From: Prosthecodimorpha staleyi
Lineage (GTDB): Bacteria; Pseudomonadota; Alphaproteobacteria; Rhizobiales; Ancalomicrobiaceae
DNA length: 64,000 bases
Reading direction: 5' to 3'
NCBI RefSeq assembly: GCF_018729455.1
Contig: NZ_JAHHZF010000007.1
Span: 124,001 to 188,000, forward strand
Under the pieces are notes generated by a model that was not told where the DNA came from, searched no databases, and saw only the letters and a list, made by a program, of their open reading frames with translations. Made by a program: the position numbers and the translations under genes. This document shows positions 22,095 through 63,035 of the stretch, piece after piece (the stretch's first letter is position 1; the number at the start of each line of letters is the position of its first letter).

Positions 22095-22301
22095 TCAGTA
22101 GTCCGACAGCACCACGTCGTCGGAATAGTCGACGTCCGGGACGTCCTTGACGATTGCCTGGCCGCAGATGACGCGGCCCTTGACGGAATCGTAGGTCAGG
22201 GTCGGGTCGCCGGCGAGCTGCCAGCCCCTGTTGAGCGCGGCGGTGACACGCTTGCAGAAGGCGACATCGTCGGGGCCGGTCAGGTAGCGGTAGAGTTTCA
22301 T
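22095..22301 (-). CDS. DUF1737 domain protein
   Basis: A 68-residue protein matching the DUF1737 pattern: YRYLTGPDDVAFCKRV, then GWQLAGDPTLTYD, then GRVICGQAIVKDV. Function is unknown; members are short soluble alphaproteobacterial proteins. It sits 43 bases upstream of nothing on its own strand and downstream of the CitE-like gene's 3' side only in map order, so it may be separately transcribed. An AAGG lies close to its ATG. Confidence 0.8.
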   Translation of the reverse strand: MKLYRYLTGPDDVAFCKRVTAALNRGWQLAGDPTLTYDSVKGRVICGQAIVKDVPDVDYSDDVVLSDY

Positions 22302-22344
22302 GTGAAACCTTGGTTAACGCCGTTCTTTGAGAAGCCGGCCGGCC

Positions 22345-56063: not shown

Positions 56064-56662
56064 GGATCGATCAGGCCCCGGGCTCTGAGTTCGGCGAGGA
56101 GCGGCAGCATCGGCAGCCCCAGGATGGTGAAATAGTCGCCTTCGATCCGATCGAACAGCCGGATGCCGAGCCCTTCAAGCTGGTAGCAGCCGACGCTGCC
56201 CAGCACCGCATCACCGGTCGCATCGAGATAGGCACCGATCGAATCCGCCGAGAGCGGCCGGACCGTCAGGCTGGCCGAGGACAGGTGCCGCCAGACCACG
56301 CTGCCGTCGACGGCCAGCGACAGGGCGGCATGGAGCTGATGGGTCCGCCCGGCGAGGCGCGCAAGCTGGGCTTCGGCACCGGCGCGGTCATCGGCCTTGA
56401 CGAAGAGCTCCGGCCCGAGCCCGAGCGTCTGGTCGGCGCCGAGCACCAGGTCGCCCGGACGGCGGCGCGAGACGGCCAGTGCCTTGGCGTCGGCGAGATG
56501 GCTGGCGATCGTTGCCGGATCGGCCCCGCTTAGCAGCAGCGGGGCCTCAACGTCGCGTTCGTCGATGCCGGCGCCTTCGACATCGAAGGCGATGCTGGCG
56601 CGGGTCAGCAACTCGATGCGGGTTGCGCTCTTGGAGGCGAGGACGAGGCCCATGCCGGTCAC
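56060..56662 (-). CDS. Maf/YceF family nucleotide pyrophosphatase
   Basis: A 200-residue Maf-like protein; members hydrolyse modified or canonical NTPs, removing them from nucleotide pools. It has [21 protein letters not shown], the conserved [11 protein letters not shown] (with catalytic aspartate) and [33 protein letters not shown]. Starts with GTG at 56662 overlapping the ppsR stop; an ATG at 56653 is an alternative. Confidence 0.92.
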
Positions 56663-57492
56663 GCGAGCGGCCCCTTGCGGTCGCGCTGGAGCGCGATGAT
56701 GCCGGCTGCGGTCTCCTCGATCGAGCGGCGGGTCACGTCGATCAGCGGCCAGCCGTTGTCGGCACAGAGCCGGCGCATCTGGGCGATCTCCTGGGCGATG
56801 GCCTGGCGATCGACATAGCTGGTGTCGAAGGCCCGGCTTCCGAGCGAGAGGACCCGGTTCTCGCGGATCTGGGCGATCCGCTCGGGGCTCGCCACCAGAC
56901 CGACGATCAGCGGCCGCGTCGCGGCGAAGACCGATTCCGGGATCGGAACCCCGGGGACGAAGGGGATGTTGGCCACCTTCACGCCGCGATTGGCCAGGTA
57001 GATCGAAGTTGGCGTCTTGGAGGTGCGCGAAACGCCGATCACGACGACATCGGCGTCGTCGGCATCCTCGGCCAGCTGCCCGTCGTCATGGACCAGGGTG
57101 AAGTTGAGCGCGTCGATGCGTCGGAAATAGGAGGCGTCGAGCTCGTGCTGGGCACCGGCCTTGTAGGTCTGGGCGACGTTCAGATAGGTCCGGAACACAT
57201 CATGGACCGGCGACAGGACCGACACGCAGGGCGCACCCTGATCGCGACAGAAGCGCTCCAGCCGCTGAGCCAGTTCGGCATTGACCAGCGTATAAAGGAC
57301 GATGCCCGGCGAGGCCTCGATCTCGATCAGGGCGCGGTCGAGCTGGCGGTCGTTGCGCACAAGCGGATGGACATGCTCGATCGCCTCGATGGAATCGTAT
57401 TGGGCGGCGGCCGCCCGGGCGACGGTGATCAGGGTCTCGCCGGTGGAATCCGAAACCAGATGGAGATGGAAATAGTTGGTCACCTTCTGCAC
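56659..57492 (-). CDS. ppsR: Pyruvate, phosphate dikinase/PEP synthase regulatory protein (bifunctional kinase-phosphorylase)
   Basis: A 277-residue DUF299 (PSRP) family protein that phosphorylates and dephosphorylates PPDK or PEP synthase on threonine. The N-terminal FHLHLVSDSTGETLITVARAA is diagnostic; a P-loop GVSRTSKTPTSIYLANRG appears near residue 152 and NIPFVPGVPIPE follows. The GTG at 57492 was chosen because GGGGA lies 7 bases upstream. It is the first gene of the leftward run starting at the candidate origin. Confidence 0.9.
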   Translation of the reverse strand: MQKVTNYFHLHLVSDSTGETLITVARAAAAQYDSIEAIEHVHPLVRNDRQLDRALIEIEASPGIVLYTLVNAELAQRLERFCRDQGAPCVSVLSPVHDVFRTYLNVAQTYKAGAQHELDASYFRRIDALNFTLVHDDGQLAEDADDADVVVIGVSRTSKTPTSIYLANRGVKVANIPFVPGVPIPESVFAATRPLIVGLVASPERIAQIRENRVLSLGSRAFDTSYVDRQAIAQEIAQMRRLCADNGWPLIDVTRRSIEETAAGIIALQRDRKGPLA

Positions 57493-57701
57493 GGAGTTTT
57501 CCCCAGCCTTCGGCCGATCCGTGGAAAACCCGGCCGGATCGCGTGTCGACCGGCCAGTCATACCCCTCGGGCAAAAACGATCAACAGGGACCTTCGCCGG
57601 AGAGAGTGCGAAGCCGGCTTTTCCCGATCGTTGGGCAAGGGGCCCGAACCGAGACGGTCATGGACTCCCTATCCACAGCGGGCTGTCTCCGCTGACGGTC
57701 G

Positions 57702-57737
57702 TTAATGCCTTGTTTACCGCGGTAAACGAATGGTTAA
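57702..57737 (+). promoter_or_regulatory. CtrA-like box and 16-bp palindrome in the candidate origin
   Basis: TTAA-N7-TTTAC (57702-57717) differs by one base from the CtrA consensus TTAA-N7-TTAAC. It overlaps a perfect palindrome GTTTACCGCGGTAAAC at 57712-57727, and TTAAC follows at 57734-57738. CtrA represses origin firing in Caulobacter, so the layout is plausible. Confidence 0.45.
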
Positions 57738-57795
57738 CGCCGGAGCCGTGGATAAATCTACCGCGCCGCAGCACCCCTCGGCAACGCCCTGTGGC

Positions 57796-57809
57796 GTTTC
57801 ACGTGAGTC
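57796..57809 (+). other. Degenerate parS-like site near the candidate origin
   Basis: GTTTCACGTGAGTC matches 12 of 14 bases of the parS core GTTTCACGTGAAAC found at 62993. The palindrome is broken on the right arm, so ParB binding would be weaker. Confidence 0.45.
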
Positions 57810-57895
57810 ATTGTGGAGGACCGCCGATCCCGGTAATTCAGGATCAAAGAGTCAAAACAATCACTTCGTGAATCGAAGGGTAGAAGGGGAAGGCT

Positions 57896-58945
57896 GTGGA
57901 TCAGGACGCGAGCCGGAAAGAGCGCAAGCTGATACGGGTGCTCGACGGCGAGACCGTCTTCCCCCCGCCGATCTGGGTGATGCGGCAGGCGGGCCGGTAT
58001 CTGCCCGAGTACCGGGCGACTCGGGCCGAAGCCGGCGGGTTCCTGGACCTCTGCTATTCCCCGAAGATGGCGACCGAGGTGACCCTGCAGCCGATCCGGC
58101 GCTACGGCTTCGATGCGGCGATCCTGTTCTCCGACATCCTGGTCATCCCGGATGCGCTGGGTCAGCCCGTGCGCTTCGTGGAAGGCGAGGGGCCGCGGCT
58201 CGATCCGCTCGATCTCGCCGAGGTCGGCCGGCTCGATCCGAGCCGGGTGCTCGACCATCTGGCACCGGTCTTCGAGGCGGTCGAGCGCATTCGCGCCGGC
58301 CTACCCGGCGAGACGACCCTGCTCGGCTTCTGCGGGGCACCCTGGACGGTCGCCACCTACATGATCGCCGGACGCGGCACGCCCGACCAGGCGCCCGCCC
58401 GCCGTGCCGCGTTGAGCGATCCAGACGGCTTCGCCCGCCTGATCGACATCCTGGTCGAAGCCTCGATTGCCTATCTGGCCCGGCAGATGGCCAGCGGCGC
58501 CGATGCCGTCCAGATCTTCGACACCTGGGCCGGGGTGCTCGACGAGGCCGAGTTCGATCGCTGGGTGGTCGAGCCGACCCGGCGCATCGTCGCCGGCCTG
58601 CGTGCCCGCGTGCCGGGTGCCAGGGTGATCGGTTTCCCGAAGGGGGCTGCGGCGGCGCTGCCCGATTTCGCCGCGCGGACCGGCGTCAACGCGGTCGGGC
58701 TGGATTGGACCGTGCCGCTCGGCTACGCCCGCGACATGCTGCAGCCGCGCATCGCCGTACAGGGCAATCTCGATCCGCTCAGGGTCATCATGGGCGGCAG
58801 GACACTCGACGAGGGCGTCGATCGGATTCTGGAGACGCTCGGCGGCGGGCGGTTGATCTTCAATCTCGGCCATGGCATCACGCCGGACGCCGATCCGGCC
58901 ATGGTCGGTCGGCTGGTCGAACGCGTCCGGGCGGCGCAGAGGTGA
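57896..58945 (+). CDS. hemE: Uroporphyrinogen decarboxylase
   Basis: A 349-residue cytoplasmic enzyme decarboxylating uroporphyrinogen III to coproporphyrinogen III in heme synthesis. Signatures: [17 protein letters not shown] (substrate arginines), [14 protein letters not shown] with the catalytic aspartate, [13 protein letters not shown] and [16 protein letters not shown] start with GGGGAAGG upstream; no ATG fits. First gene of the rightward run from the candidate origin, 4 bases ahead of hemJ. Confidence 0.96.
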
Positions 58946-62970: not shown

Positions 62971-62992
62971 TCATTCCCGATCCGAAACGAAC

Positions 62993-63006
62993 GTTTCACG
63001 TGAAAC
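62993..63006 (+). other. parS centromere site
   Basis: A perfect 14-bp palindrome GTTTCACGTGAAAC, identical to the core of the widely conserved ParB-binding site (16-bp consensus TGTTTCACGTGAAACA; here the flanks are C and A). It sits in the 233-base mnmE-mnmG gap, near the usual location of alphaproteobacterial parS close to parAB. Confidence 0.85.
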
Positions 63007-63009
63007 ACT

Positions 63010-63035
63010 CGATTCGGATCCGAATCGGATCCGAT
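63010..63035. repeat. Two overlapping GGATCC-centred palindromes next to parS
   Basis: A perfect 18-bp palindrome CGATTCGGATCCGAATCG (63010-63027) overlaps a second perfect 12-bp palindrome ATCGGATCCGAT (63024-63035), 3 bases from parS. It may form alternative hairpins in RNA or bind a dimeric protein. Function unknown. Confidence 0.7.

Follow-up and report, generated by a model that had tools for sequence, protein, structure and literature searches.

Does the gene-free gap between ppsR and hemE contain the chromosomal origin of replication, as the first-pass annotation of this DNA had proposed, and does it carry anything beyond the usual origin elements? The window, i.e. the whole stretch of 64,000 bases analysed here (G000:C7:124001-188000), belongs to a genome of 6.19 Mb assembled in 47 contigs. 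Judged from its sequence, the gap is most probably (about 95%) a DnaA-dependent oriC of the Caulobacter hemE-COG1806 type in a Hyphomicrobiales bacterium; this figure refers to the oriC and not to the ParB step considered further below. The direct basis comprises the sequence, its conservation, the skew of a sister genome, the proximity of parS and the trans-acting genes, from which every binding event is inferred. The origin itself is ordinary, adding one further genome to those with this textbook location.

Sequence elements of the gap

The gap (57493..57895) comprises 403 bp, is intergenic between hemE and the COG1806 orthologue, and has an AT content of 41%, above the genome level as represented by the window (31%). 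Its left boundary gene ppsR (56659..57492, minus strand; PF03618, E 5.3e-89) encodes a kinase-pyrophosphorylase of COG1806/DUF299, PF03618 being presumably equivalent to COG1806. The start of ppsR was set at the GTG at 57492, and its frame is open up to 57561. The right boundary gene is hemE (57896..58945, plus strand; PF01208, E 1.1e-110). The divergent gene arrangement described before, leftward from ppsR to dnaQ and rightward from hemE to mnmG, was found again, but it ends past dnaQ, where secB lies on the plus strand. The names coaE, mnmG, secB, parA and parB were assigned by eye. DnaA is encoded in the genome, but we dismissed dnaA as a neighbour of the gap, the best of four Bac_DnaA_C matches being located on another contig.

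All three DnaA boxes proposed for this region, each with one mismatch, were found: CTATCCACA (57669..57677, plus strand), TTATCCACG (57747..57755, minus strand) and TGATCCACA (57895..57903, minus strand), which overlaps the GTG start of hemE. The motif TTATCCACA occurs five times in the 64-kb window at no more than one mismatch, three of these at the gap. This total is ordinary (shuffled mean 2.22, with five reached in 7 of 100 shuffles); the clustering of three of the five boxes inside 411 bp is unusual (simulated p 0.0011). DnaA boxes in the gap are thus above chance, counting one-mismatch boxes only.

Instead of the single CtrA-like box reported, we detected two (57702-57716 and 57723-57737; TTAAN7TTAA with one mismatch each), inverted about the palindrome GTTTACCGCGGTAAAC (57712-57727) within a 40-bp inverted repeat (57700..57739, 75% complementary). 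At one mismatch, to which the CtrA sites in the gap of the source genome are limited, this motif is present four times in the window compared to 0.23 expected from shuffles, and a CtrA orthologue with 81% identity is encoded in the genome. The perfect 16-bp palindrome, formed by the CtrA-like boxes, is real but had been over-weighted. It was rejected as a special element: because the window contains four perfect 16-mer palindromes and only 2 of 95 homologous gaps, those of the source genome and its closest relative, carry GTTTACCGCGGTAAAC, the palindrome alone is weak evidence. A parS-like site with three mismatches, overlapping a one-mismatch CtrA-like box, was also seen far from the gap at 22294-22317.

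The AT-rich patch (57834..57863) proved to be real as well; with 70% AT it exceeds 99.9% of the 30-bp windows and is a candidate unwinding element. Four GANTC (CcrM) sites begin at 57663, 57805, 57849 and 57870 (stretch 57663..57874), and the genome encodes one protein with a RAMA domain, by which alone it is known as a candidate CcrM-type enzyme. The four sites are above window density (0.62 expected, P 0.004), although they show no excess over shuffles of the gap itself (2.38), and we discarded the GANTC excess of this single gap as evidence. Over the window (1-64000) GANTC is strongly avoided, with 98 sites compared to 334 expected from shuffles.

Conservation and strand skew at the hemE locus

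We compared 110 hemE loci, i.e. the best 80 of 581 plus 30 further loci. A divergent ppsR and a homologous gap were present in 95 of them (86 directly, 9 after turning round). The other 15 gave no ppsR match on the stretch examined (L028, L029, L031, L033, L040, L043, L050, L051, L075, L076, L080, L087, L123, L126 and L130); here the origin neighbourhood may be rearranged. The gaps of L021, L022 and L024 are identical to those of L105, L107 and L114 and are therefore second copies of family genomes. They are counted among the 95 gaps (at most 92 distinct), in the block-conservation counts and in the hybrid counts given below (242 parS, 251 cores, 150 hybrids), and are excluded from both groups used for motif counts (14 family gaps, 78 others). 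L090, a record titled Bacillus subtilis SK6B4, has a Rhizobiaceae-like hemE/ppsR/parS context and is probably mislabelled.

Compared to dinucleotide shuffles, the 14 family gaps contain 9 DnaA boxes (0.46 expected), 26 CtrA motifs (0.85) and 66 GANTC sites (36; 100 shuffles), and the 78 other gaps 195 (6.9), 39 (17.9) and 286 (158), respectively (15 shuffles). Common blocks in the family alignment are TCCCCAG, ATCAACAG, a TCCACAG-like block, tandem TTAA boxes and TTTCACGTGANTCATTGTGG. The block ATCAACAG (57580..57587, plus strand) is found with no more than one mismatch in 67 of 95 gaps, compared to 16 of 95 in one mononucleotide shuffle. A weak but conserved DnaA-like site (57811..57818, minus strand) reads TTGTGGAG on the plus strand and TTGTGGAT in relatives. 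At no more than one mismatch the site was recovered from 38 of 95 gaps, and from 8 of 95 after shuffling. It lies 23 bp from the next block, TAATCCAC, in 21 of the 25 gaps with both. This block (41 of 95 gaps at no more than one mismatch, 4 of 95 shuffled) is retained in the sister genome G001 and in most family gaps, and is changed to TAATTCAG (57834..57841, plus strand) in the source genome.

The GC-skew check suggested in the first-pass annotation was run on G001, which belongs to the same genus (hemE 97% identical) and carries hemE at 3,106,663 of a contig of 6,323,789 bases. We sampled 20 kb at 80 places, roughly every 80 kb and with some N (no sample above 2121 of 20000 bases), and accumulated the mean-centred skew. 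GC skew reached its minimum after the 3.20-Mb sample, with hemE at 3.107 Mb, and its range was attained by none of 5000 permutations; TA skew was lowest after the 3.096-Mb sample (p 0.022). The maxima came after the 0.24-Mb (GC) and 0.16-Mb (TA) samples, roughly opposite the minima. Skew at fourfold sites, for which genes were called with a crude GC3 rule, was less precise, with a minimum after 3.60 Mb (p 0.0004), 0.5 Mb from hemE. The best rotations were at 3.28 Mb (GC), 3.40 Mb (TA) and 3.68 Mb (fourfold), and the hemE rotation ranked 12, 4 and 22 of 159, respectively. The skew switch of this sampled sister is thereby placed at hemE to within some hundreds of kb, but not to the base. Two other indicators were abandoned: gene-strand bias was not significant in G001 (permutation p 0.85), and GC skew on the source contig, whose minimum (C7:92935) lies 88 kb away from the gap, was too weak as a locator. 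For several alphaproteobacteria GC skew is described as an insufficient locator in the excerpts of PMC1914354.

Within two mismatches, TGTTTCACGTGAAACA occurs in the whole source genome only at C7:186992, 189163 and 191740, i.e. 5-10 kb right of the gap, and these three parS sites are adjoined by parA and parB (by eye). Inside the window, the parS site CGTTTCACGTGAAACA (62992..63007, plus strand, one mismatch) directly follows the mnmE frame. The perfect palindrome GATTCGGATCCGAATC, containing two GANTC sites, lies at the mnmE-mnmG junction 3 bp past this site (63011-63026).

That the gap is a mere divergent promoter for ppsR and hemE, with transcriptional roles for its CtrA-, CcrM- and DnaA-like motifs, is highly improbable. 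The gap is common to two divergent genes, and CtrA and GANTC motifs serve in alphaproteobacterial promoters as well, but against a promoter alone stand the skew minima of G001 near the locus, the clustering of parS near the gap, the 195 DnaA boxes in the other gaps and a location that matches known origins. The latter applies to Caulobacter, where, as the earlier annotation had stated, hemE lies beside oriC: according to the excerpts of PMC1914354, this origin is flanked by hemE and COG1806 and contains five DnaA boxes together with five CtrA sites and one IHF site, and the same two genes flank the origin of Rickettsia prowazekii. An oriC at this place is therefore of an already known type.

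Taken together, motifs, conservation, the skew of G001, the proximity of parS and parAB, the DnaA, CtrA and RAMA-domain proteins of the genome, the hybrid 14-mer of the family gaps described below and this known location support the replication-origin reading put forward before. Counting against it are a skew sampled in a sister species, the distant minimum on the own contig, the fourfold-site minimum and the non-significant gene-strand bias of G001, the 15 of 110 loci lacking a ppsR match and the changed TAATCCAC block. As an oriC, the gap would have its scattered weak boxes bound by DnaA, which would open the AT-rich patch next to hemE. Bound to the paired TTAA boxes, phosphorylated CtrA might block this opening until CtrA is removed, and CcrM may methylate the GANTC sites of the gap late in the cell cycle.

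A parS-like site with a GANTC half

A further element of the gap had been missed in the first-pass annotation. The sequence CGTTTCACGTGAGTCA (57795..57810, plus strand) differs from TGTTTCACGTGAAACA by three mismatches, and its right half is a CcrM site (GAGTC, 57805-57809). As a sequence pattern, this parS/GANTC hybrid is real. All 15 family genomes contain its 14-mer GTTTCACGTGANTC. Among the 14 of them with an assembled gap, 12 carry it in exact form within the gap (G005, with a cut hemE match, was left out of this count); in G004 the hybrid is degenerate and in G007 it is missing. Family gaps show two mismatches to TGTTTCACGTGAAACA in nine of 14 cases, three in three cases, and five and eight in one case each, while the 78 non-family gaps are devoid of parS-like 16-mers with up to three mismatches. 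Conservation within the family continues past the hybrid into TTGTGG. The gap copy of GTTTCACGTGANTC is the sole one in the source genome and in G001; in G010 there are four hybrid copies within 14 kb near hemE.

Hybrids of this kind are also present around hemE in other Hyphomicrobiales. In the set of the best 80 of 581 loci, which extend at most 10 kb to each side of hemE, we detected 242 parS sites with at most two mismatches, 129 of them with GANTC, whereas the reversed control gave none. Substitutions at parS position 14 were T in 130 sites, G in one and C in none; position 16 varied freely (62 G, 32 C, 17 T). TCACGTGA cores numbered 258 in 73 of the 80 loci, of which 251 have a canonical half on one side or both. 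In these 251 the opposite half was canonical in 107, GANTC in 139 (ATC 123, GTC 16) and something else in five, and double-sided parS/GANTC hybrids were absent among the 251. In loci of at least 20.9 kb the GANTC half points toward hemE in 47 of 47 sites left of hemE and 62 of 87 right of it. Small arrays with hybrids about 30-60 bp apart were noticed in L025-L028 (around 14.7-14.9 kb) and in L037 and L049 (at about 16.5 kb). Both GAATC and GAGTC are found within arrays, and sites at corresponding positions also differ in this N.

At the level of the order, GTTTCACGTGANBC is present in 256 of 397 genomes, mostly as NTC among the places listed. Double-sided GANTC around CACGTG was set aside as a candidate; it occurs in 11 of 397 order genomes, with a purine at position 13 on both sides in two of the 11 (G260 and G314, by eye). 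In a broader survey of 347 Pseudomonadota, GTTTCACGTGANTC was detected in 25 of 48 Hyphomicrobiales (72 sites; 23 of 48 without), but with one site each in only 1 of 96 genomes from other alphaproteobacteria and 11 of 203 from the remaining Pseudomonadota. Canonical GTTTCACGTGAAAC was present in 48 of 48, 83 of 96 and 123 of 203 genomes, respectively. CcrM is common in alphaproteobacteria in general. Since hybrids are mostly absent from the other alphaproteobacteria, CcrM does not force them.

Among 150 hybrids from 109 loci, which include some duplicate genomes, 85 overlap the TGA that closes a frame of 150 or more open codons. These are mainly the ends of maf and mnmE in Rhizobiaceae, by position and with names taken from gene order. 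Much of the orientation, as well as the T at position 14 in gene-end hybrids, results from this overlap with the stop codon, and we cut back the view that CcrM sites were selected for in every hybrid. The remaining 65 are not gene ends by the 150-codon test (two have 107 and 122 open codons) and still carry T. Where C15 is kept and position 14 altered, the substitution is to T in 150 sites and to G in one (AGC). When position 14 is T, position 13 is A in 123 and G in 16 of 139 halves, and a change at position 13 alone was seen once (GAC).

We hypothesise that ParB loading at hybrids could be gated by methylation. In its full form, this would mean that many Hyphomicrobiales possess, in the chromosomal centromere, parS sites with exactly one CcrM half, at which hemimethylation behind the fork switches ParB loading once per cycle, and that one such switch lies inside the family oriC beside a DnaA-like site, joining initiation and segregation; we regard this full form as unlikely. 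Alternatively, the hybrids might be parS variants tolerated by ParB (A14 to T), whose pattern reflects common ancestry and TGA overlap and which are unrelated to CcrM, a possibility to which we give an even chance. Since position 14 is the sole position that distinguishes GANTC from what ParB itself requires, ParB may still tolerate the change. Besides the gene ends and the single occurrence among 96 other alphaproteobacteria, where CcrM is common and thus does not enforce hybrids, tolerance is favoured by the many hybrids at the same place across Rhizobiaceae, and the absence of double-sided sites would also be expected from loss of affinity. As many sites share their place in related genomes, the hybrids are not independent. 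Less easily reconciled with mere tolerance are the 65 hybrids away from gene ends, the near-exclusive T at position 14 with C15 kept, and the variable N of GANTC (GAATC or GAGTC) inside arrays and at corresponding positions. From sequence, the best argument for GANTC as such is the freedom of position 13 when position 14 is T (16 of 139, compared to one GAC half).

For the copy in the gap it might also be that the conserved TTTCACGTGANTCATTGTGG is the site of another protein and resembles parS by coincidence. This is doubtful: only one half is canonical, conservation reaches into TTGTGG, and the source genome and G001 have no second copy, but the same hybrid recurs near hemE in family members such as G010 and in the order. 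Counting against the parS-like part are its three mismatches, the single GTTTCACGTGANTC in the genome, the lack of the hybrid in G007 and its degeneration in G004. The preferred, though unproven, reading of the gap copy is that this parS-like/GANTC site, between the CtrA boxes and the conserved DnaA-like site, would let ParB load at the origin. If methylation affects ParB, hybrids would tie centromere loading to fork passage, which would directly answer the question of how these bacteria coordinate initiation with segregation.

Comparison with known systems

An apparent hybrid of a segregation and a methylation site in the oriC of a family was not found described; its novelty is provisional, the search having covered a limited set of published papers. 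GANTC within a chromosomal parS is not described in the excerpts of PMC11514494, PMC3973325, PMC9040568, PMC5172544, PMC9239152, PMC1914354 and PMC6399470. Those of PMC9040568 mention GANTC sites near a plasmid parS, and in those of PMC5172544 GANTCs at the Caulobacter parS locus serve as a methylation control.

Compared to the chromosomal parS (TGTTTCACGTGAAACA), the hybrid has one half that is canonical except for the first base and lies near the parS cluster; it differs in its right half GAGTC and its three mismatches in the source genome, and is a putative ParB site. GANTC also occurs near parS of alphaproteobacterial repABC replicons, but there, going by the excerpts of PMC9040568 and PMC11514494, it is close to parS but not part of it, and RepC is required for replication. 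In Vibrio cholerae rctA/parS2, a centromere site is likewise embedded among origin control elements (PMC6399470, in excerpts), but this belongs to a secondary chromosome controlled by RctB, another initiator. A further close counterpart is Cori of Caulobacter crescentus, which, according to the excerpts of PMC1914354, PMC6399470 and PMC3973325, shares the boundary genes, DnaA and CtrA boxes, GANTC in the origin and a parS about 8 kb away. In contrast to the five CtrA sites of Cori, the source gap has two inverted CtrA-like boxes, and it carries an internal parS-like element.
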